This document shows, in pieces, positions 1-25,709 of a stretch of 55,796 nt of DNA. The stretch is taken from contig JAQWUC010000068.1 of the NCBI GenBank assembly GCA_029242355.1, forward strand, positions 1-55,796. The letters are read 5' to 3'. The notes beneath the pieces are model-generated. The model was given only the letters and a program-made list of their open reading frames with translations. It was not told where the DNA came from and made no database searches. The DNA is from Paracoccaceae bacterium. Its GTDB lineage: Bacteria; Pseudomonadota; Alphaproteobacteria; Rhodobacterales; Rhodobacteraceae. The stretch's first letter is position 1, and each line of letters opens with the position of its first letter. The position numbers and the translations under genes were made by a program.

Positions 1-190
1 CATGTTCATGGGGGTTTGATCGTGCGCCTTTTCCCATTTTGTATAAATAAGATCCAGTTCCTTTTTCAGCATTGTAACTAAGATTATACCACCAAACCTT
101 TTCACCCGGCAAACCTGGTTGATCTAAAATTTCCCAATTTAAAGTATTTATATTTGCTACTGTACGTAATTTAGAAAGACTATTATTCAT
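1..190 (-). CDS. cupin-like protein, N-terminal part (cut by window edge)
   Basis: This is an open frame of 63 codons that runs off the left edge. The ATG at 190-188 overlaps the tmoW stop as ATGA, so it is probably translationally coupled and belongs to the same operon. The visible part ends in GSYLYKMGKGARSNPHEH. A glycine-rich strand followed by HEH is typical of the first metal-binding motif of small cupins (ChrR-like or RmlC-like). The second cupin motif would lie outside the window. No substrate can be named. The position behind a TMAO-type transporter suggests a role in methylated-amine use, but that is inference only. Confidence that it is a real gene is good; the cupin call rests on one motif. 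Confidence 0.6.
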   Translation of the reverse strand, partial: MNNSLSKLRTVANINTLNWEILDQPGLPGEKVWWYNLSYNAEKGTGSYLYKMGKGARSNPHEH

Positions 191-2256
191 AGTCCAAGTT
201 CCTTTTTCTTCTCTCTTGCCCATGTTCGTATCAAATGGTCTGCGGCTAGTCCTATGAAGGCAACACAAAGTCCAAGTGAAAGTCCATTACCAATTCCATT
301 TTTATCAGAAAGAGCTTTTAGAATATATTGGCCCAAATCGTCCGTTCCAATAAGCGCCCCAATTATAACCATAAATAATGCAAAGACTATCGTTTGATTT
401 ACACCAAGCATTATATGAGGGAATGCCATTGGTAATTCAATTTTAACCCACCTTTGCAACTTGTTTACACCCGACATCGATGCTGCATCATGAAGTGCAA
501 CTGGGACACTTCTCAATCCTTCGACGGTATATCTTGTTGCAGGTATTGTAGCATAAACAATCACGGCCGTCAGAACAGAAGTATCAGTGACACCAAACAA
601 CATGATTACAGGAATTAAGTAAATAAATGATGGAAAAGTTTGAAATGTATCACAAACCAAAAGAATAGTCTTACTTGCAAAGGAGCTCTGCGCACATAAC
701 GAACCAACTGTAATTCCAATGATAGCTGAAATCACGACTCCAAAGGTTGTCATATAAGCTGTAATGAGCGCTCGATCCCACCATTCAGTCAACGCAATAA
801 ATAAAAGAAATCCACCAACTACAATAGCTGACTGGAACCCGCCTATAATATAACCTACGGACATCACTAAAACAAAAGTTGCCGCCACAGGCATGCCTAA
901 GTAAGCATTTTTTATAGGAATCAAAACGTTAATTATTAGAAAGTCACTGAACGCCTTCAAACTAAAAAAGAATGTATCTAAAATCCAATCAACTCCAGCC
1001 TGCCAAAAGTGTTCAGTCGTGATACCTTTATTATGGGGAATAATGTAGAGATAATTAAATCCCTCTTTGAAGAAAAAACCTCCAATGTATGCGACAACTG
1101 ACCAGAAAAACAGTAAACCAATCAATAAAATTTTGTACCAATGCCTGGAAAGAAAATCACTTTTAGAGAAATAATCCACTTGCTTATCAGCCCACGCAAG
1201 CGAAAGTTTATCAAGGACAACAGCAATTAAGACTATACATATACCCAACTCAAGGGCTTTACCGACTTTTAAAGAATTTAGGGCTAAAAGCAAATTAAAC
1301 CCAAGCCCTTTTGCTCCGATAAAAGATGCAATAACCGCCATTGCTAAGCATTGCATAATAACTTGATTTACTCCAATTAAAATATCTCGCCGCGCCGTTG
1401 GAATTAAAACCCTAAACATCAACTGTAAATCATTACAACCACTCATCAAACCAGACTCTATTACTTCCGGTGGTACCTTTTTTAAACCAAGTAACGTCAG
1501 TCTAATCATGGGTGGCGTAGCAAAAATAATTGTTGCAATTGCTCCCGCATGATCCCCAACACCAAAAAAGACCATAGCCGGAACGAGATAAGAGAATTGC
1601 GGCATAGTTTGCGCTACGTTTAACAAAGGAGTCAGTATAGCTTCCATTTTTGTACTTTTGAAAGCAAGAACTCCAAAAGTAAGTCCGATTAAAAATGATA
1701 CCGGCGCAGCTATTAATACAAGAGATACCGTCTGCATCGCAGGTTCCCATTGGCCAAAGATTGCAATATATAAAGTAGCTAATCCTGCAAGGCTCGCAAG
1801 TCTTACTCCCTGTAATATAAAACCGAGAAGCATCGTTGCACTGCAAACAAATGTCCAAGGTAATCCAGGCCAATACGCCCATTCGTTGTCTCTAACAAAA
1901 TCCCAACTCGTAAATGTTACAATTGTTTTCACCCCACCAACAAGAACTTCACGAATAACCTGAATGCAAAATAATACTGCACTGGATATAGAACGCGTAA
2001 TCTCTTTAATAATTGGACTATCTTCAAAATCATCAATGTCAGGGTCATAAATTTCAATTGGCATGAAATCATACATTAAATAGCTTACGAAATCATTTAT
2101 CAAAAAAGGGAGCCCTGCTATCAAGGGCGGCAACCGCCACAAAAAGTTGTTTTCAGAAGGCTTAATAAGAAAATATAACAATAAAAATATCACAACCGTG
2201 ATTAAAAGCTGTATTGCCTTAGTATTGTATTTTTTTTCTATCTTAGGCTGTATCAT
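187..2256 (-). CDS. tmoW: TMAO/glycine-betaine-type ABC transporter permease, double-domain (TmoW-like)
   Basis: This is an inner-membrane permease of the ProW/OpuA type. The 689-residue chain holds two complete BPD_transp_1 domains, where most relatives have one. Each domain has its own ATPase-contact loop: SGLMSGCNDLQLMFRVLIP near residue 270 and AASMSGVNKLQRWVKIELP near residue 595. Each loop is followed by a near-identical GVNQ...IGA...LG segment, so the gene looks like an internal duplication and fusion. Double-length permeases of this kind are known for the TMAO transporter TmoXWV of marine bacteria. The start ATG has GAGGTT just upstream. The gene begins 6 bp after tmoV and overlaps the next gene by ATGA. 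Substrate TMAO is inferred from the adjacent tmm; betaine, choline or proline remain possible. Confidence 0.85.
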   Translation of the reverse strand: MIQPKIEKKYNTKAIQLLITVVIFLLLYFLIKPSENNFLWRLPPLIAGLPFLINDFVSYLMYDFMPIEIYDPDIDDFEDSPIIKEITRSISSAVLFCIQVIREVLVGGVKTIVTFTSWDFVRDNEWAYWPGLPWTFVCSATMLLGFILQGVRLASLAGLATLYIAIFGQWEPAMQTVSLVLIAAPVSFLIGLTFGVLAFKSTKMEAILTPLLNVAQTMPQFSYLVPAMVFFGVGDHAGAIATIIFATPPMIRLTLLGLKKVPPEVIESGLMSGCNDLQLMFRVLIPTARRDILIGVNQVIMQCLAMAVIASFIGAKGLGFNLLLALNSLKVGKALELGICIVLIAVVLDKLSLAWADKQVDYFSKSDFLSRHWYKILLIGLLFFWSVVAYIGGFFFKEGFNYLYIIPHNKGITTEHFWQAGVDWILDTFFFSLKAFSDFLIINVLIPIKNAYLGMPVAATFVLVMSVGYIIGGFQSAIVVGGFLLFIALTEWWDRALITAYMTTFGVVISAIIGITVGSLCAQSSFASKTILLVCDTFQTFPSFIYLIPVIMLFGVTDTSVLTAVIVYATIPATRYTVEGLRSVPVALHDAASMSGVNKLQRWVKIELPMAFPHIMLGVNQTIVFALFMVIIGALIGTDDLGQYILKALSDKNGIGNGLSLGLCVAFIGLAADHLIRTWAREKKKELGL

Positions 2257-2262
2257 TGAACC

Positions 2263-3324
2263 TCAGTTTTTATTATTCTTGTCTCCGAATAAAACTTTAA
2301 TAACCTTTAAATGATCAAGACTTCCAACAATTTCTCCAGAATTATCAACCACCCCAACCAAAGCCGCTTGACTCAATACAGACTCAGCAACTGACTCTAT
2401 CAAAGAGTCCTTTGATACCCTCAAATCTCCTAATTGATCTTTATCCTTTATAGGATTCATAATAGATTCAATTTTTAATACCTTTTCTCTTGGAACATCT
2501 TCAGTGAATTTTCGTACATATTCTGTCGCTGGACTTAGAACAATATTGGCAGGTGTATCAAGTTGTTCAATAATACCGTCCTTCATTATTGCTATTCTAT
2601 CAGCTAATCGCAACGCCTCATCAAAGTCATGTGTTACAAATAAAATAGTTTTATTTAATACCCCTTGTAGACGAAGGAATTCATCTTGCATTTCTTTTCG
2701 AATAAGAGGATCTAACGCAGAAAAAGGTTCATCAAGAAACCAAATATCAGGTTCAACAGCAAGAGACCGAGCAATTCCAACTCGTTGTTGTTGCCCTCCC
2801 GATAATTCACGTGGAAAATAATTTTCACGACCAGACAAACCAACCAGATTGACCATTTCCATTGCTCTAGCAACACTTTCCGTCGTTGAGTTTCCCTTAA
2901 TCTGAAGAGGAAAGGCGATGTTTTCTAAGACCGTTTTGTGAGGAAGTAAAGCAAAACTCTGAAAGACCATACCCATCTTATTTCGACGAAGCTCTATTAG
3001 CTCTTTGTTCCCCATCGACAAAAGATCACTACCATTAATTGATATTTTTCCAGAAGTAGCAGTGGTAAGTCTTGATATACAACGTAGTAAGGTAGATTTA
3101 CCTGACCCAGATAATCCCATTACTACGAGCATTTCTCCCTCAAAAAGCTCGAATGAGGCATTATTTACTCCTACTACACACCCTGCTTTTTGGAATTCCT
3201 CAGCATCAACATTTCCATTAGCACCACTAAGCATCTTCGTAGCGTTTAAACCAAATATTTTATAAACTGATTCACACTTTATCACAGGAGATGCTTTTAT
3301 TTGTTCTGAACCTTTAGCAGACAT
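2263..3324 (-). CDS. tmoV: ABC transporter ATP-binding protein, ProV/OpuAA type (TmoV-like)
   Basis: This is the ATPase of the quaternary-amine/TMAO uptake system. Visible motifs are Walker A (GLSGSGKST), a Q-loop (MVFQSFALLPH), the signature LSGGQQQRVGIARSL, Walker B (IWFLDEPFSALDP) and the switch His (FVTHD). The C-terminal part (residues about 270-350) resembles the CBS-like regulatory tail of ProV proteins. A longer reading from a TTG nine codons upstream is open. I chose the ATG at 3324, which has AGGG about 9 nt before it. An insertion before Walker A (residues about 35-50, with DAEEFQKAGCVVGVNNASFELF) matches ProV-family architecture. Its neighbours are the binding protein upstream, after a stem-loop, and the permease 6 bp downstream. 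Confidence 0.85.
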   Translation of the reverse strand: MSAKGSEQIKASPVIKCESVYKIFGLNATKMLSGANGNVDAEEFQKAGCVVGVNNASFELFEGEMLVVMGLSGSGKSTLLRCISRLTTATSGKISINGSDLLSMGNKELIELRRNKMGMVFQSFALLPHKTVLENIAFPLQIKGNSTTESVARAMEMVNLVGLSGRENYFPRELSGGQQQRVGIARSLAVEPDIWFLDEPFSALDPLIRKEMQDEFLRLQGVLNKTILFVTHDFDEALRLADRIAIMKDGIIEQLDTPANIVLSPATEYVRKFTEDVPREKVLKIESIMNPIKDKDQLGDLRVSKDSLIESVAESVLSQAALVGVVDNSGEIVGSLDHLKVIKVLFGDKNNKN

Positions 3325-3430
3325 AAACCAATACCCTAGTTTTGGTAACAAAAATACTTATTAAACTCTTTTTACTTAATAACTATGCCACAGTATAACG
3401 TGAAATTCTTGAGAGCGCCTTAAATTTATT

Positions 3431-3464
3431 AGCTAACCCCAAATTTATCTATCGGGGGTTAGCT
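3431..3464 (-). terminator. stem-loop between binding-protein gene and ATPase gene
   Basis: A perfect 10-bp inverted repeat (AGCTAACCCC / GGGGTTAGCT, 14-nt loop) lies in the 156-bp gap between tmoX and tmoV. The tract after it on the minus strand is AT-rich but not a strong T-run, so it may act as a partial terminator or an RNA-stabilising hairpin. Such elements commonly keep binding-protein mRNA in excess over the membrane components. Confidence 0.6.
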
Positions 3465-3480
3465 ATTTCATTTTTAATTA

Positions 3481-4440
3481 TTACATGCCAGCTTGAGTGA
3501 ACGCCTTCCAAACAGCTTCGTTATCGGCAAGCCAGCTTTTAGCTGCATCTTGATGACTCATACCATCAATATCGACTAGCTTAGCCATCGATCCAATTTG
3601 ACCTGCATTGAACGACATCTGAGAAAACGCTGAATATGCGGCAGGATGAGTTTTTGGAAACTTATAATTTGCTGCCTTTTTTAGCCAACCTTTTGGAGAC
3701 CCACATTTACTATCTCCGCCATCTTGTTTTCTACAGCCAGGATAGTACGGAGGCCATTCAATAAAGGCGAATCCATCGGCATCTGTAAAGTTTGGAGTCC
3801 AATTAAAAGTAATTGTTCCACGTCCTTCTTTTTTTGCTGATGCTAATTCAGCCCATAGAGCATCCGCACTACCAGCAAATTTAACAACCCAGTCATCCCC
3901 CAAAAGGGCTTGAACTCTATCAGGATATTCGACTCCATGCCAGCTTTGTGGACCCTCTAAAATTCGTCCCTTTCCGCCAGAATCTGCGGTAGCAAATACA
4001 TCTTTACAATCTTTTAAGGCTTCCCAGTTTGGTAGTCCTGGACATAAATTTTTGTCTATTACCCACTGAGGAACTCCAACTTCCTCTAATGTCATCGCCG
4101 CATGAGTACCTGCATCGATTAATCCGCCTTTAGCCATAGCGGTATAGAACGATTTACCAAAAGTAGATTGCCATACTTCATGTGAAATAGTTACATCACC
4201 ATTTCTTATAGCTTCATACACTGCTTGTGTGTCTGCCGGAACATATTCGACATTATTTCCCATACTTTCAAAGATACCCCCTATAACGTAAGCCATAACA
4301 ACTTGGCTTGACCAATTGTGAGTTGGGATAACGATTGGTTCACTACTGTCAGCAGCTTTCGTTATATTTGCCAAAAACATAAACGATAGCGCAGAAGCTG
4401 CCATTAGGTTAAAAATTCCTTTTAAAAAACTATACTTCAT
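3481..4440 (-). CDS. tmoX: periplasmic TMAO/quaternary-amine-binding protein (TmoX-like)
   Basis: This is a solute-binding protein of the OpuAC (ProX-like) family. It has a Sec signal peptide (MKYSFLKGIFNLMAASALSF then ANITKAADS) and about 319 residues. The mature protein starts with EPIVIPTHNWSSQVVMAYVIGGIFESMG, typical of the first lobe in this family. It is rich in Trp and Tyr (HNWSS, VPQWVID, SWHGVEYP, IEWPPYYPGC), as expected for an aromatic cage around a trimethylammonium-type head group. The start was set at the second in-frame ATG because GGAGG overlaps the first one and sits 5 nt before the second. It lies directly behind tmm, so TMAO is the likeliest ligand. Glycine betaine or choline binding cannot be excluded from sequence. 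Confidence 0.85.
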   Translation of the reverse strand: MKYSFLKGIFNLMAASALSFMFLANITKAADSSEPIVIPTHNWSSQVVMAYVIGGIFESMGNNVEYVPADTQAVYEAIRNGDVTISHEVWQSTFGKSFYTAMAKGGLIDAGTHAAMTLEEVGVPQWVIDKNLCPGLPNWEALKDCKDVFATADSGGKGRILEGPQSWHGVEYPDRVQALLGDDWVVKFAGSADALWAELASAKKEGRGTITFNWTPNFTDADGFAFIEWPPYYPGCRKQDGGDSKCGSPKGWLKKAANYKFPKTHPAAYSAFSQMSFNAGQIGSMAKLVDIDGMSHQDAAKSWLADNEAVWKAFTQAGM

Positions 4441-4502
4441 TTTTTCCTCCATTTTTGAATATTACGAGCCCATGAATTTAAGATTTGACCTCGCCCCATG
4501 AT

Positions 4503-5843
4503 TTATTTTAAATACGTCTCCTTGCTATCATCTAATTCCTCAGACCAAATTTTATGGTGAGAAGGAGAAATGGATTTATCCATAGGAGAAACAAACCCAC
4601 CATGATCTCTAAATGTCATAATGCCCTTTTTCTTGTGCTTCTTCCAACGATAGAAAGCCTGATTAGCAGCTTCAACATCGAAAGAAGGATAGTCAGTCGC
4701 CTTGATTAATTCAGCCGTGTACGCGCCTTGGCAGGCAATACACGCATAATCGTCCTCCAAAGCATCCTCAGCAGCCTGTCGGTCTAAAACATCTTGCTCC
4801 ATTTCCACTTTAGCAGGCAATGAAATATCACCAAGGATTATATCTCTCACATACCAAGCCTGAGCATCAAACATGTTAAAAGTATACCATTGGTCCTGCA
4901 TTCCTAAATAAAATAATTGAGTGTTTCTATTCCAAACAACGCCTTTATAAAGATCAGAAGCTGCCAGCCGATTAGCTGTCTTTAAACGAAGATCATCCGG
5001 TAAAAATGGAAAATGGTGTTTGTATCCAGTACATAAAATTATTGCATCAACCTTTATCGACAACCCGTCTTTAAAATATGCTGTTTTATCCTCCACCTTA
5101 ACTAAAGCTGGAACCTCACGCCAATTGTCAGGCCAGTTAAATCCCATAGGAGCGGTTCTATGCGCCACAGTCACAGACTTGCATCCGTACTTCCAACATT
5201 GCGAACCAATATCTTCAGCTGAATAGCTTGTACCCAGGATTAAAATATTCTTATTAACAAATTCTCTCGCATCTCTAAAATCATGTGCATGCAAAATACG
5301 TCCATTAAACTTCTCAAATCCTTCATAATATGGAGTATTTGGAGTTGAAAAGTGACCACTCGCAACAATAACATTATCAAAAATTTCAGTTTTTTCGGTA
5401 TCTGATTCTGCATCTCTTGAAATCACAGAAAACTTCTTTTTTTCAGCAATGTATTTGACATCACGAACGATAGTATTGAATCTAATTTTGTTCCTAAAAT
5501 TTGTTTTCGCTAACCTGCCCTCAATATAATCAAACAAAACCTCTCGAGGAGGATAAGAAGGTATCTCTTTCCCAAAATGCTCCTTAAAAGTATAGTCAGA
5601 AAATTCTAGCCCTTCTTTTGGCCCATTCGACCATAGATATCTATACATCGATCCGTGACACGGGTTTCCGGCATCATCAATACCCGTTCGCCAATTATAA
5701 TTCCAAAGTCCTCCCCAATTATCTTGTTTCTCATAACAAACAATTTCTGGAATTTGTTTACCCTTTTTCTCCGCCTGCTGAAAGGCACGCAGTTGTGCTA
5801 AACCCGATGGACCCGCTCCAATGATGCAAACTCTTTTATTCAT
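4503..5843 (-). CDS. tmm: trimethylamine monooxygenase, flavin-containing
   Basis: This FAD- and NADPH-dependent flavin monooxygenase oxidises trimethylamine to TMAO in the cytoplasm. The 446 residues match known bacterial Tmm length. Motifs are an FAD Rossmann GAGPSG (residues 9-14), the flavin-monooxygenase signature [11 protein letters not shown] (179-189), an NADPH site [10 protein letters not shown] (204-213) and a [10 protein letters not shown] motif (271-280). A Tyr sits at position 207, a residue that I recall as important in characterised Tmm enzymes. The start ATG has GAGGT 7 nt upstream. The gene lies between the mgs genes and tmoXVW, the context expected for TMA/TMAO catabolism. 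Activity on other small amines or dimethylsulfide is possible, as reported for the family. Confidence 0.9.
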
Positions 5844-5929: not shown

Positions 5930-6514
5930 TTAATGCACTGAAAAGGACTCCTTCCAGTTTGGTAAAAAGGCTAAAACTATAGTTTCTGGATGTAGTTGCG
6001 GATTAAACAACAAATTGTGAGCAAAAGTTGACTGGTAATATAGATCATTAAAATTCAACGACTTAACTTGACAGTTGATTTCATATCGTTGGCTGAAAGC
6101 ATCAAAAATCAAAAAGCAAGATTGGTTGTTTAAAATTTTATTTGCGCCAACAGAATTTGGTCTGAATGTAGCCGTCAGTATATCTGAAAACTCTGCGTGC
6201 TTTTGATAAAACGTCGATGACAAAAACTTTATTGCCTGCTCTCTTCTTTGCGCTGGGTCAAAAGTCTTTTTTGACATGTGTTTAAGTTCAGCGGTTACAG
6301 AGAATTGCGGGCGTTTATGAATAAGCGTAATAACTGAACCTACACTAACTGAGGAGCTTAAAGACCCTAGTTTGACAATAGGCATCATGCCATCATCAGG
6401 CTGACCGCTATTGTCTCTCATTGCAATCTGACGCACCCGACATTGCCACTTCATAAAGGTTTTTCGAATATCAATTTCTTTGGCAGTCTCACTAATATAG
6501 CTGGACATATTCAT
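5930..6514 (-). CDS. conserved-looking hypothetical protein in mgs-tmm operon
   Basis: I do not recognise this 194-residue protein. It has no signal peptide and no membrane segment. An N-terminal stretch (MKWQCRVRQIAMRDNSGQPD, residues 21-40) is rich in basic residues and may be its conserved core. The rest alternates hydrophobic and polar residues, as in a soluble beta-rich fold, with one LxxxTFRPNSVGANKILNNQ segment. It lies 52 bp after the 137-residue gene and 86 bp before tmm on the same strand, so it is probably co-transcribed with mgsABC. The ribosome site is weak (AGGA, 12 nt before the ATG), which suggests low expression or an alternative start at Met3. A role in methylamine metabolism is inferred from position only. 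Confidence 0.65.
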   Translation of the reverse strand: MNMSSYISETAKEIDIRKTFMKWQCRVRQIAMRDNSGQPDDGMMPIVKLGSLSSSVSVGSVITLIHKRPQFSVTAELKHMSKKTFDPAQRREQAIKFLSSTFYQKHAEFSDILTATFRPNSVGANKILNNQSCFLIFDAFSQRYEINCQVKSLNFNDLYYQSTFAHNLLFNPQLHPETIVLAFLPNWKESFSVH

Positions 6515-6566
6515 AATTATAATTAATCCTGACCTTTTTTAGAAACATAATTAAATTATACTGTTG

Positions 6567-6980
6567 TTAAAATTTCATATAAGCTTTTCTTAAAGTGACC
6601 AATGGATGTCGATCTGACATTTGAAACTTCACCAAAAGTTCCCGAGCAATCATATCACGGTCTTGCTGATTATCTGGAAGAATAATATCGTCGGGGACCC
6701 TCACCCAACCATTAATATTTCTATCAAAAACCGCAGGCTTACCGTCCTCATAACCCATATGAACATCCTCTAACCAATTCAGGTCATCCCAACCCATAAT
6801 CTCCATATATTTTGACAAAAATGGAGTAATGACCTTATAATCTGGAACAAGATTTACGTCATAACGATAACCAATATGTTGCCCAATTTCTTTTTCTCGT
6901 TCACTTGATAAACCAGCAGAGTCATCTATAAATTGATCGACATCCTTTATTTCTGATCCTCGATATTGTGTTCCAGCCAT
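6567..6980 (-). CDS. small conserved hypothetical protein directly behind mgsC
   Basis: This is a soluble acidic protein of 137 residues and unknown function. It starts MAGTQYRGSEIKDVDQFIDD with TAGGAG 6 nt upstream. It has several Trp (GWDDLNWLED, NGWVRVPDD) and a charged C-terminal helix region (RDMIARELLVKFQMSDRH). No catalytic motif or metal-binding cysteine is visible. It follows mgsC by only 9 bp, so tight co-translation with the N-methylglutamate synthase subunits is likely. It could be an accessory or assembly factor of that complex, but this is inference. Finding the same gene next to mgsABC in other genomes would make that case. Confidence 0.7.
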   Translation of the reverse strand: MAGTQYRGSEIKDVDQFIDDSAGLSSEREKEIGQHIGYRYDVNLVPDYKVITPFLSKYMEIMGWDDLNWLEDVHMGYEDGKPAVFDRNINGWVRVPDDIILPDNQQDRDMIARELLVKFQMSDRHPLVTLRKAYMKF

Positions 6981-6989
6981 AATATTCTC

Positions 6990-8354
6990 CTACAGATGAT
7001 GATAATCTTTAACGCCAACAGTGTGGTTAGTTCCAGCGAGAGGGACTCCAGCCATTGCAGATGACTCCATGGTCAGAGCAGCTAAATCCTCAGGCTCTAA
7101 CGAATGCAGATTTGTTTTTCCACAGGCTCGCGCAAAAAGCTGTGCTTCTATTGTAAGTGTATGAAGGAAATTATAAACTCTCTCTGCCGCCTCATCCGGA
7201 TCTAACCGTGCTCTTAAAATTGGATCCTGAGTCGCTACTCCTACTGGGCAACGGCCGGTATGGCAATGATAACAGTGTCCAGGTTCGACGCCCATTTCTT
7301 CTTGATAATTAGCTTCGGGAATATCTTTATTACAGTTCAGCGCCATCATCGATGAATGTCCAATTGCTATAGCATCAGCTCCGAGCGCTATCGCTTTAGC
7401 AACATCAGCTCCGTTTCGAATTCCACCAGCGTAGATTAATGTGATATCGCCGCGCTTACCAAGATCATCAATCGCTTTTCGAGCCTGGCGAATGGCAGCC
7501 ATTCCTGGCACACCTGTATCTTCAGTTGCAAGGTGTGGACCTGCTCCAGTCCCACCCTCCATTCCATCGATATAAATCGAGTCGGGGTCGCATTTTACTG
7601 CCATCCGTACATCATCATACACTCTAGCCGCACCTAATTTAAGTTGAATCGGAATCTGCCAATCCGTTACTTCTCTTATTTCTTGAATCTTCAATGCTAA
7701 ATCATCTGGGCCTAGCCAATCCGGGTGCCTCGCCGGAGATCGTTGATCTATACCAGCCGGTAATGATCTCATTTCAGCGACTTGATCTGTTACCTTTTGC
7801 CCCATTAAATGACCACCAAGACCAACTTTACAGCCTTGTCCAATAAAAAACTCACACCCATCAGCCAAAAGCAAATGGTGAGGATTAAATCCATATCGAG
7901 ACTGAATACATTGATAGAACCATTTGGATGAGTAACGTCGTTCATCGGGAATCATTCCACCTTCTCCAGAACAGGTTGCAGTTCCAGCCATTGTAGCGCC
8001 TCGAGCCAAAGCCGTTTTAGCCTCATAACTTAGAGCCCCAAAACTCATTCCCGTGATATAAACTGGAATATCAAGTTCTAATGGTCTCTTTGCTCTTGGG
8101 CCAATGACTGTTTTTGTCTCACATTTTTCTCTGTACCCTTCTATGACAAACCGCGTTAACGTTCCTGGTAAAAAGGTTAAATCGTCCCAGTGAGGAATTT
8201 TTTTGAACAAAGAGAATGCACGCATTCGATATCGACCCAGCTCAGATTTTATATGGATATCATCCATAACGTGGGGAGGAAAAACAAATGAACCACCTAG
8301 CTTATATGTATCTCTATCAATTTTTTTCTTTATTGGCATATCTCCGTCAGCCAT
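6990..8354 (-). CDS. mgsC: N-methylglutamate synthase subunit C (glutamate-synthase FMN domain)
   Basis: This is a stand-alone version of the FMN-binding synthase domain of glutamate synthase (GltB centre, GlxD/MgsC type), 454 residues. It carries the (beta/alpha)8 barrel segments TGMSFGALSYEAK (101-113), IQLKLGAARVYDDV, IYIDGMEGGTGAGP (260-273) and IYAGGIRNGADVAKAIALGA (307-326). The iron-sulfur cysteines are in CYHCHTGRCPVG (Cys361, 364, 369), as in the 3Fe-4S site of glutamate synthases. In the methylamine pathway it forms N-methylglutamate together with MgsA and MgsB. It starts 16 bp behind mgsB with AAGGAA before the ATG. The same gene set also occurs as glxBCD in rhizobia, where its role is less clear. 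Confidence 0.88.
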   Translation of the reverse strand: MADGDMPIKKKIDRDTYKLGGSFVFPPHVMDDIHIKSELGRYRMRAFSLFKKIPHWDDLTFLPGTLTRFVIEGYREKCETKTVIGPRAKRPLELDIPVYITGMSFGALSYEAKTALARGATMAGTATCSGEGGMIPDERRYSSKWFYQCIQSRYGFNPHHLLLADGCEFFIGQGCKVGLGGHLMGQKVTDQVAEMRSLPAGIDQRSPARHPDWLGPDDLALKIQEIREVTDWQIPIQLKLGAARVYDDVRMAVKCDPDSIYIDGMEGGTGAGPHLATEDTGVPGMAAIRQARKAIDDLGKRGDITLIYAGGIRNGADVAKAIALGADAIAIGHSSMMALNCNKDIPEANYQEEMGVEPGHCYHCHTGRCPVGVATQDPILRARLDPDEAAERVYNFLHTLTIEAQLFARACGKTNLHSLEPEDLAALTMESSAMAGVPLAGTNHTVGVKDYHHL

Positions 8355-8370
8355 CTTTTATTCCTTTCTA

Positions 8371-9240
8371 TCAAAGTATAAGCTTCTTTTCAGAAGGCTC
8401 CAAATTATCATAATTCCATAACATTTTTCCGGCGACAATTTTATTGAAGTGATCCACGCCGTTTTTAGGTAACATCCCATACTGTGTCAGTTTTCGAGTT
8501 AACCAGCTCTTATCCAAATCAGTCAATTCAGCATGGACTGCGTCTACGCCAAGAGATTTAATTTCACCTCCCACATAGATAGTGCCGTCATACATCGAAT
8601 CTCCTAAGTTCTTTCCGGCATTCCCGCACACAACCATACGCCCCCTTTGCATCATAAAACCTGACAAAGCACCTGTATCTCCTCCGACCAGTATGGTGCC
8701 ACCCTTCATGTCTATACCTGTTCGTGAACCAACCGACCCACGACACACAAGGTCTCCACCTCGAATTGCAGCGCCAAAAGTGGATCCAGCATTTTTTTCG
8801 ATTAAGACGGTCCCTGACATCATATTTTCTCCACAAGACCACCCTACTCTGCCTGTTATACGGACATTAGGGCCATCAATCAGACCAACGCCGAAATAAC
8901 CGGTTGAACCTTCAATAATCAGATTAAGTTTACTGAGTATCCCCACACCAAGTGAATGCTTTCCCCGAGGGTTTTTAAGAACAATAGTACCGTAACCCTC
9001 ATTCATAAGTTTCTTTATTTCTTCATTCACTTCAGTAGAGGTCATTTCATCTGAGTCAATTTCAGTTCTTTTATTAAAATCCACATCTGGCGCCCAAGGA
9101 TATAAAAAACGTTCACTTGCACCAGCATCAAATTCCATGAACATTGAACGTCCTGTCAGTTGCTCTGAAGTCATACCTAGCGCCTTAACACGCTCATCCT
9201 GCGTCATTTGTTTTAAATCAAAATCGTTTACGCTTGCCAT
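8371..9240 (-). CDS. mgsB: N-methylglutamate synthase subunit B (GXGXG domain)
   Basis: This 289-residue protein corresponds to the C-terminal GXGXG beta-helix domain of glutamate synthase (GltB3, GlxC/MgsB type). The repeats are visible from about residue 120 to 230 as glycine-spaced turns: GRVGWSCGENM, GGDLVCRGSVGSRTG, GGTILVGGDTGALSG, RGRMVVCGNAGKNLG and DGTIYVGGEI. The domain has no active site of its own in glutamate synthase, where it holds the other domains together. Its start lies 13 bp inside the end of mgsA, so the two are translationally coupled, and mgsC follows after 16 bp. Order A-B-C matches known N-methylglutamate synthase operons. Confidence 0.88.
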   Translation of the reverse strand: MASVNDFDLKQMTQDERVKALGMTSEQLTGRSMFMEFDAGASERFLYPWAPDVDFNKRTEIDSDEMTSTEVNEEIKKLMNEGYGTIVLKNPRGKHSLGVGILSKLNLIIEGSTGYFGVGLIDGPNVRITGRVGWSCGENMMSGTVLIEKNAGSTFGAAIRGGDLVCRGSVGSRTGIDMKGGTILVGGDTGALSGFMMQRGRMVVCGNAGKNLGDSMYDGTIYVGGEIKSLGVDAVHAELTDLDKSWLTRKLTQYGMLPKNGVDHFNKIVAGKMLWNYDNLEPSEKKLIL

Positions 9241-10163
9241 ACTCGAACCTCCTCATCATATGGATCATAAGTATCAATTTCTTGAGGTAAGATTGCCCTT
9301 ATTGCTACTTCTTCCGAAGCCATGGCAATAAGATCTGTACTTTCATACAAAACTAGTGGTTTAGCTGCCATAGTATCTTTTGCCATTCCCAACTGATCTT
9401 TAGTGGCCACTAAATATGTAAACACACCATCAATCTCTTCAATGGATTGCCTTAGACTATCCTCAAGTGCCATTCCCTTCGACAAATTATGAGCCGTATA
9501 AACGGCCAACAATTCGCTATCGCAATTAGAAGTAAAACGATGTCCTTTATTTTCCATCTCCCGTCGCATGATCCAATAGTTCGTGATCTGCCCGTTGTGA
9601 ACAACCGACACATCGCTATAAGGGAAAGCCCAGTAAGGGTGCGCTGAACGAATATCAACGTCAGACTCAGTTGCCATTCGAGTATGACCGATCCCGTGGG
9701 TGCCGTTAAATGACTGTAAGCCATATGCTCCCGAAACGTCCGTTGCATCACCTAAATCCTTTATTAATTCCAAACCGTTCCCAATCGAGAGAATCTCGGC
9801 GCCTTGTACCTCTTCGAGGTGATTAGCCAATCTTCCCATATCACCATCGTATTTAATCACGTATCGAAGTGCATATTCGGTAGCATTGCTCTTGTCTTTA
9901 ATTGAGACGCCATTTTCTTTCAAAATTTCATCAATCTTAGATATTCTTCGTTCTAATTCAGCATAGATACCCCGACCACTCGCCATATCATCAGCTTCAG
10001 CAACTTTGACGCGCATAACAAATTCTTCGGCAATTCCCTCGCTGTAAACCGCGTAACCAGTAGAGTCAGGGCCGCGATGCTTTAATGCTTGTAGCATTGA
10101 GGTCATCTGTGAACCCACATTAGATTGTTTACCTTTATATATTAATCCAGCTATCCCGCACAT
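9228..10163 (-). CDS. mgsA: N-methylglutamate synthase subunit A (class II glutamine amidotransferase domain)
   Basis: This is an N-terminal-nucleophile amidotransferase of 311 residues, the GltB1 equivalent (GlxB/MgsA). The chain begins MCGIAGLIYKG, so Cys2 becomes the catalytic N-terminal residue after Met removal. Further family motifs are LKHRGPDSTGYAVY (about 28-41), GIGHTRMATESDVDIRSAHP (about 158-177), VVHNGQITNYW (about 187-197) and TSNCDSELL. In the pathway it acts on gamma-glutamyl donors, transferring or releasing the amine group for N-methylglutamate formation. AAGGAG lies 9 nt before the ATG. It follows the glutamine-synthetase-like gene by 59 bp on the same strand. Confidence 0.88.
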   Translation of the reverse strand: MCGIAGLIYKGKQSNVGSQMTSMLQALKHRGPDSTGYAVYSEGIAEEFVMRVKVAEADDMASGRGIYAELERRISKIDEILKENGVSIKDKSNATEYALRYVIKYDGDMGRLANHLEEVQGAEILSIGNGLELIKDLGDATDVSGAYGLQSFNGTHGIGHTRMATESDVDIRSAHPYWAFPYSDVSVVHNGQITNYWIMRREMENKGHRFTSNCDSELLAVYTAHNLSKGMALEDSLRQSIEEIDGVFTYLVATKDQLGMAKDTMAAKPLVLYESTDLIAMASEEVAIRAILPQEIDTYDPYDEEVRVWQA

Positions 10164-10222
10164 TTTAATGCGCTCCTTTTATTTAAATGTTTTTTTGTAA
10201 GTTTGCCAAAATATCCTCAAAT

Positions 10223-11704
10223 TTATGGCAAACACTCCATGTAAGTTTCATTATCCCAGTCTGTTACGCTTGACATAAATCGCGCCCACTCGTCGTACTT
10301 GTATTCATGATACAAGCGATACATTTCCCCTGGCATCCCACTTTGGACGACTTTATCATTTGCTAATGCATCAAGGGCTTCACCTAAAGACATTGGTAAT
10401 TTTTTTACCTGCTTTCCTGCTTCCATAGCTTCATAAATATTTCTTTCCTCAGGGGCTCCTGGATCCAATTTATTCTCTATACCATCATCTGCAGCAGCTA
10501 GGATTGTAGATCCCATAATGTACGGGTTAACCATAGAATCTACTGATCGATATTCAAACCTACCGGGCGCAGATACTCTCAAACCAGTAGTTCTATTTTG
10601 GAATCCCCAATCTGCAAAAACAGGCGCCCAAAATCCAGTATCCCACAAACGCCGGTAAGAATTCACAGTCGAGCACCCAATGGCCGTTAAAGCACTTATA
10701 TGCTGAACTATACCACCAATGGCTTCTAACCCCGCCTTTTGAGGCATCTGCGGATCATCTCCATCCGGCATAAAGGTATTCTCTCCTCCCTTTACATACA
10801 TGAAGTTTTCCGACATTCCAGGCAGGTTCTTGGGATCATTTCCAATCGGAACGAATTCATCCTTACCTCCACGCCACAATGACATATTATGATGGCAACC
10901 ATTAGCCGAAACACCCATAAAAGGCTTACTCATAAAACATGCAAAAATACCAAATTCGCGAGCAACTTGAGCACAAATTTGGCGGTATGTGGTAAGACGA
11001 TCGGCATTTCGTAAGACGTCATCAAACATCCAATTCAATTCCAATTGCCCAGGCGCATCCTCATGATCCCCCTGGATCATATCTAGACCCATGGCCCTAC
11101 TATACTCCATAACCTTCATGTACACTGGCCTCAAACTTTCAAATTGATCTATGTGGTAACAATATGGCTTTGAAAATCCATCTTTTGGCTTTCCATTTTC
11201 ATCAAACTTCAACCACATCATCTCTGGCTCAGTACCCATCCTCAACTTTAGACCATCATTCTTTTTCGTAAAGCTTTCATGAAGTCTCCTTAGATTACCT
11301 CGACAATCTGCAGTTAGGAATGCTCCGGAATCAGTTTTCTCTTCTCTATTTCTAAAAAGCGTGCAGTAGAAACGTCCTATCCGTTTATCCCAAGGCAACT
11401 GCATGAATGTATCTGGTTCTGGAATGCCAACCAATTCAGCACTTTCTGGACCGTACCCCAAATAATTACCAGCTCGATCAGTGAAGAGATTTACTGTAGC
11501 TCCATAAACTAGTTGAAATCCTTTTTTTGCAACACTTTCCCAATGATCAGCAGGAATTCCTTTTCCCATAATTTTGCCGGTTACAGAGACGAACTGTAGA
11601 TACAAATAATCTATACCTAATTCGTCAATTTTTTTTCGCACTTCCTTAACTTTTTCGGCTCTACCTGGTGCCTCAACGAAATTTTCAATATCCATTTTTG
11701 ACAT
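10223..11704 (-). CDS. glutamine-synthetase-family ligase (candidate gamma-glutamylmethylamide synthetase)
   Basis: This is an ATP-dependent gamma-glutamyl ligase of the glutamine synthetase superfamily, 493 residues. Family motifs include the metal/glutamate site MGTEPEMMWLKF, the QGDHEDAPGQLELNW segment (replacing the usual E-x-x-P-x-Q-x-E region), FMSKPFMGVSANGCHHNMSLW (the K-P-x-x-x-x-x-G-x-G-x-H class, here ending GCHHN) and the loop YRRLWDTGFWAP. Its place directly before mgsABC is where gmaS stands in methylamine-utilising bacteria, so gamma-glutamylation of methylamine is the likely job. However, it is about 50 residues longer than usual GmaS/GlnT, and its N-terminus (LGIDYLYLQFVSVTGKIMGK) looks different from classical GmaS. 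Another amine substrate is possible. GGGAG precedes the ATG. Confidence 0.8.
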   Translation of the reverse strand: MSKMDIENFVEAPGRAEKVKEVRKKIDELGIDYLYLQFVSVTGKIMGKGIPADHWESVAKKGFQLVYGATVNLFTDRAGNYLGYGPESAELVGIPEPDTFMQLPWDKRIGRFYCTLFRNREEKTDSGAFLTADCRGNLRRLHESFTKKNDGLKLRMGTEPEMMWLKFDENGKPKDGFSKPYCYHIDQFESLRPVYMKVMEYSRAMGLDMIQGDHEDAPGQLELNWMFDDVLRNADRLTTYRQICAQVAREFGIFACFMSKPFMGVSANGCHHNMSLWRGGKDEFVPIGNDPKNLPGMSENFMYVKGGENTFMPDGDDPQMPQKAGLEAIGGIVQHISALTAIGCSTVNSYRRLWDTGFWAPVFADWGFQNRTTGLRVSAPGRFEYRSVDSMVNPYIMGSTILAAADDGIENKLDPGAPEERNIYEAMEAGKQVKKLPMSLGEALDALANDKVVQSGMPGEMYRLYHEYKYDEWARFMSSVTDWDNETYMECLP

Positions 11705-11757: not shown

Positions 11758-13101
11758 TTAACTCCACGGGTATGGGCTGTTCGAAACTGGGTGTAAATCA
11801 CCAGTTTCGTAACGTTTTTGCCTAAACGGTTTAAGTAATTCTTGCTCGTGTCCAAGAATTTCATCTGCTATCAAATGTCCAACGCCTATCATCTTCCAAC
11901 CATGATTGGAGTCCGCAATGACTGACACATTTTGTTTAAAGTGATCAAAAACTGGAAAACTATCAGGAGTAAAACATCCGATCCCACCTGATGGGTCTTT
12001 ATGATATTGCGTCATAGTTCCTTCAAATCGTTTATGACAATGAGCAAGCGCAGATACCCACATGTGTGCAAAGTCGCTACTTGAAACAAACTCAGGGCTT
12101 GAGGGCCCATATGGATCAACCGCTACTTCATTGACTGGCTTATTAATTTTGTAAGGTGAAGCTCCTCCCTGTACTCCGCCAAAGTGCCAATCCGGTTTGT
12201 AATAAATGCCCCACATTTCATCTGTGATCACAGAGCCATCAACATCAGAATAAAGAATAGCATCGGTATCAACATGAATAACTGGAGGCATTTCATTGTC
12301 ATTTGTTTTTAATAACTCCGGCTTTACTTTTAAAACACCTTCTTCAAGTTGCCAATATCGCCACATATTAACATTTTTGTGTGTTTTCCCATCAAGATCT
12401 TTAAGCGTTATTTTGCTCGGTAAATCTAACATAGACCAAAAATCACGAACCCACGGACCAGCCGCCACAACAATGTGATCACAGTTTATATTCCCCTTAT
12501 CAGTTTCAACTGATTTTATAGCCTCTGATCCACTCTCTGATATCAAACCTTTTACAGTTAAACCAGAAATTATCCGGACACCTAGCTTCTCCACCTTAGA
12601 AGCAAGATGATACATAGCTTTTGTTTGGTTCGAGTATCCGCCCTTCTTCTCATGCAAGACAGAAGTTATACCTTTTGCCTGCCAATCGTTAAAAAGCGTT
12701 TTCATGTAATCGTGAGATGCTTTTTCTCCTTCGACAAACACGCTATCATAGCCTATCTTTTGTTGTTGCTCATATATCTCGCTAACATCTGATCTCATGC
12801 TTTCAGAGGAAACTTGCATATAACCGACAGGATGATAGTTCAATCCCTTCGAGTCAGATTCCCAGATATTCACAGAATGCGCCATTAACTTTCGCATTGC
12901 AGGTTGATAATAATTATTCCTTACAACACCGCAAGCTATACCCGAAGCGCCAGCTGCAATGCCACTTTTGTCTATAACCGTTATCGCCCCTTCGATTATT
13001 TCACCTTTCTCTTGCATTCGTTCAGCTAACTTCCAAGCAGTAGAGAGACCGTGAATGCCGGCTCCTATAATTAAGTATTTAGAATATGAAGGGATTGTCA
13101 T
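11758..13101 (-). CDS. FAD-dependent amine/amino-acid oxidoreductase (DAO family, sarcosine-oxidase-beta-like)
   Basis: This is a 447-residue DAO-superfamily flavoenzyme. The N-terminal FAD dinucleotide motif is YLIIGAGIHGLSTAWKLAER (about 9-28), followed by VIDKSGIAAGASGIACGVVR, a flavin-contact segment typical of sarcosine oxidase-like proteins. Near the C-terminus, GGIGCFTPDSFPVFD and DSNHGWKMIGVGHLIADEIL form the second flavin-binding part. It heads the minus-strand operon (ligase, mgsABC), so an N-methyl or N-alkyl amino acid is a sensible substrate. A second enzyme of this family (soxBDAG-like) is encoded at 15.8-20.9 kb, so the two may have different substrates or backup roles. It has a promoter candidate about 55 bp upstream. 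Confidence 0.8.
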   Translation of the reverse strand: MTIPSYSKYLIIGAGIHGLSTAWKLAERMQEKGEIIEGAITVIDKSGIAAGASGIACGVVRNNYYQPAMRKLMAHSVNIWESDSKGLNYHPVGYMQVSSESMRSDVSEIYEQQQKIGYDSVFVEGEKASHDYMKTLFNDWQAKGITSVLHEKKGGYSNQTKAMYHLASKVEKLGVRIISGLTVKGLISESGSEAIKSVETDKGNINCDHIVVAAGPWVRDFWSMLDLPSKITLKDLDGKTHKNVNMWRYWQLEEGVLKVKPELLKTNDNEMPPVIHVDTDAILYSDVDGSVITDEMWGIYYKPDWHFGGVQGGASPYKINKPVNEVAVDPYGPSSPEFVSSSDFAHMWVSALAHCHKRFEGTMTQYHKDPSGGIGCFTPDSFPVFDHFKQNVSVIADSNHGWKMIGVGHLIADEILGHEQELLKPFRQKRYETGDLHPVSNSPYPWS

Positions 13102-13181: not shown

Positions 13182-13234
13182 ATAAAAAATGAACCAAATA
13201 TTTGACTTTTTATAAAATTGGTTTAGTATTGGTA
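13170..13234. promoter_or_regulatory. phased ACCAAT/ATTGGT repeats, candidate operator shared with the mgd promoter
   Basis: Four related half-sites lie in the divergent promoter: AACCAAT at 13170-13176, AACCAAA at 13192-13198 (offset 22), ATTGGTT at 13217-13223 and ATTGGTA at 13228-13234 (offset 11). The last pair, read on the minus strand, is TACCAAT-4 nt-AACCAAT. The region upstream of the mgd operon carries the same arrangement as TACCAAT-4 nt-TACCAAT. Offsets of 11 and 22 keep the sites on one face of the helix. Direct repeats fit an AraC-type activator such as the GlxA-like protein encoded nearby; binding by the local GntR protein is the alternative. Confidence 0.5.
13202..13229 (+). 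promoter_or_regulatory. candidate sigma-70 promoter of gntR gene
   Basis: TTGACT at 13202-13207 and TAGTAT at 13224-13229 have a 16-nt spacer and are followed by AAGG at 13240-13243. The boxes lie inside the longest open reading of the regulator gene, which argues that the true start codon is further downstream, at 13253. The -10 overlaps the ATTGGTT/ATTGGTA repeats, so a bound protein would block or alter this promoter. Confidence 0.45.
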
Positions 13235-13252
13235 CAAATAAGGTCCGTACAG

Positions 13253-13939
13253 TTGGAAACAAATAAAAAAAAGTTGGGTGCGCTCGATATATCAACAAGA
13301 ATTAGAAAAGAAATTTTTGATGGAGGAATCGCATTCAAAGAAAAACTACCTGCCGAACGAGTTTTGGCAGACTTTTACAATGTGTCTCGAGGAACCATTA
13401 GATCCGCTCTAAAACATTTAGAAAAAGATCACTACCTTACCATCAAACCTGGTAGTGGAGCTGTAGTTTCATATGAACGATTGAAAGCAATAGTTTCTCC
13501 CGTGGAAAATGCAAACCCATTAGAATTAATTGACGCACGATTTGCTATTGAACCTCACATTTGTCGATTAGCGATACTGCACGGTAAACGTGAGCACTTC
13601 AAGAAACTCGACGATTACATGACACTAATGGAAAAGAATCCAGACCATACAAAAGAATTTGCCATAGCAGACACTAATTTTCATAAAACACTTGCTGAAA
13701 GCACAGGAAACAACCTCTTAATTTGGATAATTAGTCAAATTACTGCTGCTCGTGATCTACCAGAATGGACAAAAGCCCGAAATTTGACTCTGAATAAAGA
13801 TATAGTCACGCTTTATAATTTGCAGCATCGCAATATCCTAAATGCATTAATTGCTAGAGAACCGGAATTGGCGGCATCCGCAATGAAAGAGCACTTAGAA
13901 ACAGCTCGTCTTTCTCTCACCCGCGCATCGGGAACCTAG
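13253..13939 (+). CDS. GntR-family transcriptional regulator, FadR/FCD subfamily
   Basis: This is a DNA-binding regulator of about 228 residues. The winged helix covers DISTRIRKEIFDGGIAFKEK through LPAERVLADFYNVSRGTIRSALKHLEKDHYL (about 12-65). An FCD ligand domain follows, with DARFAIEPHICRLAILHG, the DTNFHKTLAESTGNNLL segment and later His residues that normally bind a metal and a small carboxylate. I chose the TTG at 13253, with AAGG 9 nt upstream, because a promoter candidate occupies the start of the longer open frame from 13202. It is divergent from the oxidoreductase-mgs-tmm operon and ends overlapping the amidotransferase gene by 4 bp tail to tail. Its effector may be an N-methyl amino acid or glutamyl compound (inference). 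Confidence 0.85.
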   Translation: METNKKKLGALDISTRIRKEIFDGGIAFKEKLPAERVLADFYNVSRGTIRSALKHLEKDHYLTIKPGSGAVVSYERLKAIVSPVENANPLELIDARFAIEPHICRLAILHGKREHFKKLDDYMTLMEKNPDHTKEFAIADTNFHKTLAESTGNNLLIWIISQITAARDLPEWTKARNLTLNKDIVTLYNLQHRNILNALIAREPELAASAMKEHLETARLSLTRASGT

Positions 13940-15781: not shown

Positions 15782-17032
15782 ATGAATTATTCAGCGCTTA
15801 AAGTATTTTTTCAAGGTTTATCTGGAAACAAAGGTTGGAAACCGATGTGGAGAGAACCTGAACCAAAAGAAGAATACGATATTTTAATAGTTGGTGGCGG
15901 AGGGCATGGACTCTCAACGGCATATTACCTAGCTAAAGAGTTCCAAGAAAAAAAAATAGCAGTCTTGGAAAAAGGTTGGATAGGATCTGGGAATATAGGA
16001 AGGAATACTACGATTATTCGTTCTAATTATTTATTAAAAGGAAATCAGCCTTTTTACGAGCTATCTATGAAGCTTTGGGAAAATTTAGAACAAGATTTTA
16101 ACTATAACGCAATGATCTCTCAACGAGGGATAATGAATCTATTTCATAACGACCCCCAACGTGACGCTTACACACGGCGAGGAAACTCCATGATGATTTC
16201 TGGAGCAGGCGCCGTGATGCTGAATGAAAAAGAAGTACGACGAGTTGCTCCCTTCTTAGACTTTGATAACGCTCGTTTTCCAATAAAAGGGGCACTGTGT
16301 CAAACTCGCGGAGGAACAGTAAGACATGACGCTGTCGCCTGGGGTTACGCCCGAGGTGCGGATAGACTTGGGGTAGATATTATTCAAAATTGTCCAGTTT
16401 TAAATATACTTGTTGAAAACGATAAATGTATTGGTGTTGAGACTGCAAAAGGAACAATCAAAGCAAAAAAAATTGCTATCTGTGTTGCGGGCTCTTCAAG
16501 CCAAGTAATGAATATGGCTGGTTTAAAACTTCCAATTGAAAGTCATGTTTTGCAAGCCTTTGTAACAGAAGGATTAAAACCAGTTCTTCCAGGAGTAATA
16601 ACTTTTGGAGCTGGTCATTTTTATGTCAGTCAATCGGATAAAGGCGGGCTTGTGTTTGGTGGAGATATTGACGGGTATAATTCATATGCCCAGCGAGGGA
16701 ACCTTCCCACAGTAGAGGATGTTTGCGAAGGTGGAATGGCAATAATGCCGATGATTGGAAGATCAAAATTATTACGGATGTGGGGTGGAATAATGGATAT
16801 GTCCATGGATGGATCACCGTTTATTGATAAAACAAAGATTGAAGGCCTCTTTTTTAACGGTGGTTGGTGTTATGGCGGTTTCAAGGCAACACCAGCAAGT
16901 GGCTTTTGTTTTGCTCATCTGTTGTCGAAAGGCGAACCTCACGAAACAGCCTTGGAATTTAGGTTAGATCGTTTTCAAAGAGGCGCAGTAATCGATGAAA
17001 AAGGCCAAGGCGCTCAACCAAACTTACATTAG
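15782..17032 (+). CDS. mgdA: sarcosine oxidase / N-methylglutamate dehydrogenase beta-type subunit (SoxB/MgdA-like)
   Basis: This FAD/FMN-binding subunit has 416 residues, the normal SoxB length. The FAD motif is DILIVGGGGHGLSTAYYLAK (about 33-52), followed by WIGSGNIGRNTTIIRSNYLL, the flavin-proximal stretch of heterotetrameric sarcosine oxidase. VRHDAVAWGYARGADRLGVD and the C-terminal NGGWCYGGFKATPASG complete the DAO-fold signature. It is first in a soxB-D-A-G order that matches both sarcosine oxidase and NMG dehydrogenase. The methylamine neighbours favour N-methylglutamate as substrate. GGAG sits 5 nt before the ATG. SoxB and MgdA cannot be told apart with certainty by eye. Confidence 0.85.
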   Translation: MNYSALKVFFQGLSGNKGWKPMWREPEPKEEYDILIVGGGGHGLSTAYYLAKEFQEKKIAVLEKGWIGSGNIGRNTTIIRSNYLLKGNQPFYELSMKLWENLEQDFNYNAMISQRGIMNLFHNDPQRDAYTRRGNSMMISGAGAVMLNEKEVRRVAPFLDFDNARFPIKGALCQTRGGTVRHDAVAWGYARGADRLGVDIIQNCPVLNILVENDKCIGVETAKGTIKAKKIAICVAGSSSQVMNMAGLKLPIESHVLQAFVTEGLKPVLPGVITFGAGHFYVSQSDKGGLVFGGDIDGYNSYAQRGNLPTVEDVCEGGMAIMPMIGRSKLLRMWGGIMDMSMDGSPFIDKTKIEGLFFNGGWCYGGFKATPASGFCFAHLLSKGEPHETALEFRLDRFQRGAVIDEKGQGAQPNLH

Positions 17033-17051
17033 ACAATGGAATAAAAAATTT

Positions 17052-17354
17052 ATGATAATCAATCATCCCATTTTAGGCCCCCGAGATGCAAACGAATTTG
17101 TTTACAAAGGAGATGCGGAATTATTAAACCGCCCACATTGGACTCCAAATGCGACAAAAAGGGCGACATACGCAGAACAAGAAGAATTCCATGATTATCT
17201 CTATCTGAGAAATAATCCTGCTGGTGAGCATAAAGAACTATGGTACCACGAGCAAGGTGACAGATCTTGGTTAATAATAACACGCGATACACTCACCCAC
17301 CAAATCTCCAAAGTTGAGCTTGTTAGAGAGTTCTTAAAGGAAAAAGTGACATGA
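17052..17354 (+). CDS. mgdB: sarcosine oxidase / N-methylglutamate dehydrogenase delta-type subunit (SoxD/MgdB-like)
   Basis: This is a small subunit of about 100 residues. I start it at MIINHPILGPRDANEFVYKG, because the longer frame overlaps the end of soxB by 38 bp and adds a non-family extension. In classical SoxD the first residues hold CPxCGxR, binding zinc with two further Cys. Here the place is taken by HPILGPR, and no cysteine appears in the chain, so the zinc site seems lost. The remainder (EEFHDYLYLRNNPAGEHKELWYHEQGDRSWLIITRDT) matches SoxD, including the W-x-H-x-x-G-C/D-R region. The gene overlaps the next one by ATGA. Confidence 0.82.
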   Translation: MIINHPILGPRDANEFVYKGDAELLNRPHWTPNATKRATYAEQEEFHDYLYLRNNPAGEHKELWYHEQGDRSWLIITRDTLTHQISKVELVREFLKEKVT

Positions 17355-22543: not shown

Positions 22544-22566
22544 CCATTTTCGTATAAGGAGTAAAA

Positions 22567-24641: not shown

Positions 24642-24644
24642 ATT

Positions 24645-25598: not shown

Positions 25599-25709
25599 GT
25601 AAACCCCAAGTTTTTGGCTTAAATAATTCTATTCGGCACGCTGAAGTGTTGCATGACTTTAAAAAGCTTGGTAGTGAATTGCAACTATAATTTAGGTAGA
25701 GTTCACAGA

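Follow-up and report, generated by a model that had tools for sequence, protein, structure and literature searches.

A conserved gene cassette beside trimethylamine monooxygenase: a candidate Dmm-independent route for dimethylamine in marine bacteria

What do two small genes of no recognised family do between a glutamate-synthase-like gene and the gene for trimethylamine monooxygenase? Both lie on the minus strand of the window (the whole 55,796-nt stretch of DNA analysed here), between an MgsC-like gene and tmm, and they encode proteins of 137 and 194 residues, referred to here as p137 and p194. The ATG of p137 is 9 bp from the stop of the MgsC-like gene, with TAGGAG, a good ribosome site, upstream of it; 52 bp separate p137 from p194, and 86 bp separate p194 from tmm. 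The first-pass annotation had described the two reading frames, the ribosome site and the spacing around p137 accurately, and it had suggested that both proteins are assembly or regulatory factors of N-methylglutamate synthase or carry out an enzymatic step of their own. The genes that matter for the question are as follows:

187..4452, minus strand: OpuA-type ABC transporter genes (PF04069, PF00005, PF00528), which we take to be tmoW-, tmoV- and tmoX-like.
4503..5843, minus strand: tmm, trimethylamine monooxygenase (NF058570 above cut-off).
5930..6514, minus strand: p194, 194 residues, putative accessory protein with a predicted FMN-binding split-barrel (PNPOx-like) fold.
6567..6980, minus strand: p137, 137 residues, proposed as a small subunit dedicated to a variant Mgs complex, or as its obligate partner, from gene order in 118 of 118 loci and the MgsC tree.
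6990..8354, minus strand: MgsC2, glutamate-synthase-domain subunit of variant type (PF01645), 52% identical to canonical MgsC.
8371..9240, minus strand: MgsB2, GXGXG-domain subunit (PF01493).
9228..10163, minus strand: MgsA2, glutaminase-type amidotransferase subunit (PF13522/PF13537), N-terminal Cys2 retained.
10223..11704, minus strand: GS2, divergent GmaS-like amide ligase of 493 residues, proposed gamma-glutamyldimethylamide synthetase.
11758..13101, minus strand: DAO-family FAD oxidoreductase (PF01266), proposed N,N-dimethylglutamate demethylase.
13202..13939, plus strand: GntR-type regulator, which at most loci runs divergently to the cassette.
15782..20852, plus strand: SoxBDAG/MgdABCD-like heterotetrameric oxidase genes (TIGR01373 above cut-off, TIGR01375, PF01571, PF17806), proposed final demethylation.
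20852..23466, plus strand: formate-THF ligase and FolD-type dehydrogenase/cyclohydrolase (PF01268, PF02882/PF00763), C1 oxidation.

Both p137 and p194 are genuine genes and not chance reading frames, because they are conserved and under purifying selection. Across 42 aligned sequences p137 shares 77-98% identity with the window copy, and its dN/dS is 0-0.06 (8 of 9 pairs computable); for p194 the figures are 36-63% over 51 aligned sequences and 0.02-0.20 (7 of 9 pairs computable). That neither protein carries a recognisable motif was borne out at the level of sequence families: Pfam gave no match for either at E<=1, NCBIfam gave none for p137 and only a meaningless 11.8-bit match for p194, and a PDB sequence-profile search gave nothing credible. 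The profile matches of p137 to TLAP2 (E 0.012) and of p194 to rubredoxin (E 0.57) were taken as chance. A search of a plasmid collection returned no match for p137 or p194.

The genes upstream of p137 had been read as mgsABC and gmaS; the module types stood, and the enzymes proved to be paralogues of the characterised ones (about 52% identical for MgsC, about 30% for the ligase). The window ligase scores 306.9 bits against TIGR03105 (GmaS-type), below the cut-off of 469.6, and the solved structures nearest to it match only in part. Relatives hold a separate cluster whose GmaS matches the solved Rhodovulum GmaS (7cql) over its whole length at 630 bits, and the MgsC beside that structure-backed GmaS is again about 52% identical to the window MgsC. 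Among 196 genomes of the same order, 68 carry an MgsC at E<=1e-100, but the window type (92-100% identity) occurs in only 8 of them, and all but one of the 8 carry the 52%-type as well (7 of 8), here called canonical-type. Because the ligase falls below the cut-off, MgsC is only 52% identical and a canonical set exists elsewhere, we treat the window genes as a second, divergent set, GS2 and MgsABC2; 'gmaS' and 'mgs' calls made on this paralogue may be wrong. Another contig of the source genome encodes a canonical-type MgsC, 83% identical to the relatives' canonical copy (G000:C12:2167-3495, L140).

Compared with the N-methylglutamate pathway (GmaS, MgsABC, MgdABCD), the cassette has the same ligase, amidotransferase, GXGXG and glutamate-synthase modules, the same ligase catalytic residues and SoxBDAG/Mgd-like genes nearby, but it differs in its divergent MgsC and ligase, in a consistently different amine-site motif, in the invariant p137 and the frequent DAO gene, and in coexisting with the canonical set. 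The three MgsABC2 subunits carry GATase, GXGXG and glutamate-synthase domains (Pfam). NADPH/ferredoxin glutamate synthase (GltB) contains fused equivalents of the MgsA, MgsB and MgsC domains, and MgsC2 matches GltB structures; in the cassette, by contrast, the subunits are separate and no GltD-like partner is seen adjoining them, p137 being there instead.

By alignment, GS2 retains all the named catalytic and amine-pocket residues of RhGmaS (Lys30, Tyr147, Gln175, Asp177, Glu179, Glu186, Asn188 and Arg312), and the catalytic trio Asp177, Glu186 and Arg312 is fully conserved in the window ligase; GS2 should therefore make gamma-glutamyl amides of amines. The motif IQGDHEDAPGQLELN occurs in 101 of 101 GS2 sequences, whereas YQ(N/S)DHED(A/G)NGQ(F/W/Y)EMN occurs in 45 of 45 GmaS and 0 of 101 GS2. 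The changes, Tyr to Ile, Asn/Ser to Gly and an aromatic residue to Leu, could widen the amine site. Canonical RhGmaS is reported to have a Km of 16 mM for dimethylamine (DMA) against 27 uM for monomethylamine (PMC7948447), and a separate DMA ligase makes sense since RhGmaS handles DMA only at that Km. At one locus (L019, ~7189-10548, genome G133), DAO, GS2 and MgsB2 match in pieces, the ligase over residues 129-372 only and MgsB2 in two parts, and this locus may hold frameshifts or a damaged cassette.

The gene for p137 follows MgsC2 directly and on the same strand in 118 of 118 loci, so its homologues are not mostly found away from mgsABC, as they would be for an unrelated factor. The loci comprise 80 named ones (the top scorers among 580 that encode a relative, and hence skewed to close relatives), 7 from the order sample, 20 from a sample of the class outside the order (of 26 p137 genomes), 10 from the Pelagibacterales (of 67) and the window. 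In the order sample p137 is present in 8 of 196 genomes, the same 8 that carry p194 and MgsC2, and it is absent from all 60 genomes with canonical-type MgsC only. In a tree of 150 MgsC sequences, all 110 that adjoin p137, the window copy included, form a single clade, and the other 40 lie outside it (midpoint root; local support 0.82). The idea that p137 is a factor of the synthase thus survives in its context, but its partner is a divergent second Mgs and not the characterised N-methylglutamate synthase, and the distribution described below favours dimethylamine over monomethylamine as the substrate. We found no conserved cysteine among the aligned p137 sequences, which makes an iron-sulphur carrier role unlikely. 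An AlphaFold2 monomer built from 42 sequences had low confidence (pLDDT 65) and gave meaningless Foldseek matches, and a reading of the fold was dropped; so poor a monomer model would fit a protein whose folding depends on a partner. From its gene context, p137 is most readily taken for a small subunit dedicated to the Mgs variant, and we hold its partnership with MgsABC2 more firmly than the reading of the cassette as a whole.

For p194 the picture is different, and the suggestion that it is a core factor of the synthase had to be given up. Its predicted model (51 sequences, pLDDT 95) resembles FMN-, F420- and heme-binding split barrels (Foldseek, VIA-align), the best being 3db0 at Z 11.1 and 2.7 A over 117 residues; it thus shares a predicted fold with PNPOx-like FMN proteins but differs from them in having only 8% identity and no curated family match in Pfam or NCBIfam. 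It follows p137 in 74 of the 80 named loci (the top scorers among 580), 72 complete and 2 cut by contig ends, and three of the other six (L068, L073, L131) are contigs of <=4.3 kb. It occurs in 12 of 20 class loci, on the opposite strand in 10 of these, and was not found in any of the 10 Pelagibacterales loci. Being often absent or inverted, p194 is not a core Mgs factor, and we propose that it has an accessory role, as a protein of predicted flavin-type fold, at the end of the cluster that deals with TMA and TMAO. Its identification with DmmA was rejected, the only NCBIfam match at E<=1 being a chance one to a transposase. Between p137 and p194, 64 of the 80 named loci (again the best 80 of 580) carry a nitrilase-family amidase gene (Pfam CN_hydrolase) that the window lacks; for examples at L017:7483-8328 and L023:11240-12094 the nearest curated models are of deaminated glutathione amidase, below cut-off, and the enzyme could repair a deaminated amide by-product.

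The surroundings of the cassette belong to the trimethylamine pathway: Tmm (766 bits against the NF058570 cut-off of 675 in NCBIfam), the OpuA-type transporter and Tdm (DUF1989 plus GcvT), with a TMAO permease (NF053774) in some loci. Tdm yields DMA from TMAO, and we compared the cassette with Dmm among genomes that encode full-length Tdm. DmmC was taken as the upper of two tiers of PF11927 matches, a tier reached in 43 of 196 order genomes, and the borders against paralogues (Dmm <1e-64, full-length Tdm <1e-240) were set after the gap in the match lists had been seen. The DmmC-tier gene in the locus examined (L150) adjoins a ferredoxin-reductase-type gene.

Among Tdm genomes the cassette and Dmm are almost mutually exclusive. 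In the order sample, 49 genomes have full-length Tdm, of which 40 have Dmm only, 7 p137 only, one both (G170) and one neither (G066); outside the order, the 21 Tdm genomes of the class sample divide into 17 with p137 only, 2 with Dmm only and 2 with neither (G366, G451). Combined, the 70 genomes give 42, 24, 1 and 3 for Dmm only, p137 only, both and neither (Fisher 2e-14, phylogeny ignored). All 8 order genomes with p137 carry Tdm, and 9 of 26 class cassette genomes are without it. A single genus, g26, holds both states: Dmm in G037, G108 and G123, the cassette in G074, G090, G130 and G176, and both in G170. Of the 8 cassette genomes in the order sample, 7 lack a DmmC-type protein, and in the source assembly (G000, 61% complete) a search for it met only a distant paralogue at 4.3e-45. 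G366 has the DAO gene of the cassette and is 84% complete, and for these reasons it may be a missed cassette. Because canonical-type MgsC coexists with it in 7 of 8 order genomes, the cassette appears to replace Dmm and not the monomethylamine enzymes. It appears to take the same pathway position as DmmDABC of Ruegeria pomeroyi, after Tdm, but it has no parts homologous to that enzyme. The order and class samples together contain 25 Tdm genomes with the cassette, and 24 of them have no DmmC-like protein.

The same association recurs in the order of G400, where p137 was found and genomes measure 0.8-1.5 Mb. We take this order to be the Pelagibacterales (SAR11), with G488 (L216), G503 and G490 as HTCC1062, HIMB5 and HTCC7211. 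Of its 147 genomes, 67 have p137 and 67 have Tdm; 64 share them, 3 have p137 only, 3 have Tdm only and 77 have neither. In L216 the order of genes is tmoX, tdm, a 116-aa ORF, DAO, GS2, MgsA2, MgsB2, MgsC2, p137, a 466-aa ORF, canonical MgsABC and GmaS; the cassette therefore sits between the DMA-making and the monomethylamine-using genes. In L196 the counterpart of the 466-aa ORF is an ammonium transporter. The 116-aa ORF lies at L196:16410-16760 (minus) and L216:3266-3616 (plus), and the L196 copy has no Pfam match. The arrangement in L216 fits the HTCC1062 numbering given in PMC3160333 (SAR11_1302 transporter, 1303 AMT, 1304 monomeric sarcosine oxidase, 1313-1315 glxBCD, 1316 glnT). A full canonical MgsABC-GmaS set stands beside the cassette in 4 Pelagibacterales loci, and in 6 of 10 GmaS adjoins MgsABC2 and the stretch holds no canonical MgsC.

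For Dmm in the Pelagibacterales we draw on a search of G400, in which it was absent, and on PMC5520151, which reports that dmm (dmmDABC) is missing throughout SAR11 and in the CHAB-I-5 lineage. HTCC1062 is reported to grow with TMAO as sole nitrogen source without dmmDABC, and the authors postulate an isoenzyme (PMC8918994). The CHAB-I-5 strain SB2, so placed by PMC12661815 and PMC12075776, carries the cassette (L117). A di/tri methylamine dehydrogenase that CHAB-I-5 genomes are said to encode (PMC12075776) is another possible DMA route.

Gene order, co-occurrence, the replacement of Dmm, paralogy, the ligase differences and the predicted fold of p194 lead us to a reading that we consider slightly more probable than its opposite: the cassette, GS2-MgsA2-MgsB2-MgsC2-p137 and usually DAO, would be a Dmm-independent DMA pathway that takes the place of Dmm in bacteria turning TMAO into DMA. 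GS2, with ATP, would join DMA to glutamate as gamma-glutamyldimethylamide; the MgsA2 amidotransferase would free DMA inside the complex, and MgsC2 would join it reductively to 2-oxoglutarate. If the complex works as N-methylglutamate synthase does, it would yield N,N-dimethylglutamate, a product that would need one demethylation more than N-methylglutamate. DAO, or another oxidase where DAO is absent, would take off one methyl to leave N-methylglutamate, and the Mgd/Sox enzyme the second. In this scheme p137 would be the dedicated small subunit of the Mgs variant and p194 an accessory at the TMA/TMAO end. We are less sure of the exact intermediates than of this reading as a whole. In titles and abstracts of open-licence papers we found no relevant literature on dimethylglutamate or glutamyldimethylamide in amine breakdown, and in the open-licence literature no publication that proposes this cassette; dimethylamine, SAR11 and glutamine synthetase together led to GmaS work only.

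The DAO gene is not present in every cassette genome. It occurs in 27 of the 35 genomes with p137, compared with 0 of 11 Tdm genomes without the cassette (10 Dmm controls and G066), and GS2 has a DAO/sarcosine-oxidase-like FAD gene nearby in 15 of 20 loci of the class sample and in 9 of 10 from the Pelagibacterales. The p137 genomes without it are five of g26 together with G265, G271 and G422; given the five, the second step is not uniform, and another oxidase would have to act in them. The same five weaken DAO as a universal first enzyme, and with it a rival scheme in which DAO itself oxidises DMA to monomethylamine while GS2, MgsABC2 and p137 process monomethylamine only. The position of DAO upstream of GS2 and the count of 27 of 35 against 0 of 11 speak for that scheme, but four of the five also lack Dmm, and the coexisting canonical monomethylamine genes would make the second ligase redundant; we consider it improbable. 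We think it just as improbable that the cassette acts on some other amine tied to TMAO metabolism, the Dmm pattern reflecting lineage or habitat only: the 9 class cassette genomes without Tdm and statistics that ignore phylogeny would allow it, but the replacement occurs within a single genus, and only 6 of 147 Pelagibacterales genomes have one of p137 and Tdm without the other.

A more serious competitor, though still an unlikely one, makes the cassette a second, perhaps high-affinity, monomethylamine system with p137 as its assembly factor or subunit, DMA being handled otherwise. The catalytic residues that GS2 retains from GmaS agree with it, as do the six Pelagibacterales loci in which GmaS adjoins MgsABC2 and the records L128 and L179 (4659-5957; L179 is from G422), apparently of one organism, in which the position of GS2 ahead of MgsA2-B2-C2-p137 is taken by a GmaS-type ligase (59%) and DAO is missing. 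These two records suggest a variant synthase switched to monomethylamine, and they would agree with a single function shared by GS2 and DAO, MgsABC2 being able to serve either ligase; together with the six loci they indicate that MgsABC2 can probably also take gamma-glutamylmethylamide. A cassette devoted to monomethylamine, however, would duplicate the canonical-type MgsC of 7 of 8 order genomes and the full canonical set beside it in four Pelagibacterales loci; the near-exclusive pattern is with Dmm and not with GmaS or MgsC, and the ligase motif separates 101 of 101 GS2 from 45 of 45 GmaS sequences. We therefore continue to prefer a DMA pathway.

The DMA step of marine bacteria that lack DmmDABC, SAR11 above all, is presented as an open question in PMC5520151 and PMC8918994, and the former infers a metabolic bottleneck throughout the ocean by which DMA can pass into aerosols. 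We give an even chance to the proposal that an oxygenase-free, glutamate-linked DMA route with a four-subunit synthase including p137 is this missing step in SAR11 and other marine bacteria without DmmDABC. If so, the SAR11 question would become testable through six defined genes that lie where such a step is expected, surveys that count dmm genes alone would undercount DMA consumers, and the unnamed, very strongly conserved p137 family would have its first role.

Further genes of the window adjoin the cassette on its other side. Those at 13936-14655 and 14720-15667 encode a class-I glutamine-amidotransferase-like protein and an AraC/DJ-1-type regulator, and the regulator is similar in kind to the published AraC-type TmaR (PMC13390433). 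Beyond the C1 genes, 23511-29896 has the look of sugar-acid metabolism, with Gfo/Idh/MocA oxidoreductases, a 2-hydroxyacid dehydrogenase and a gene of the galactarate dehydratase/altronate hydrolase type.
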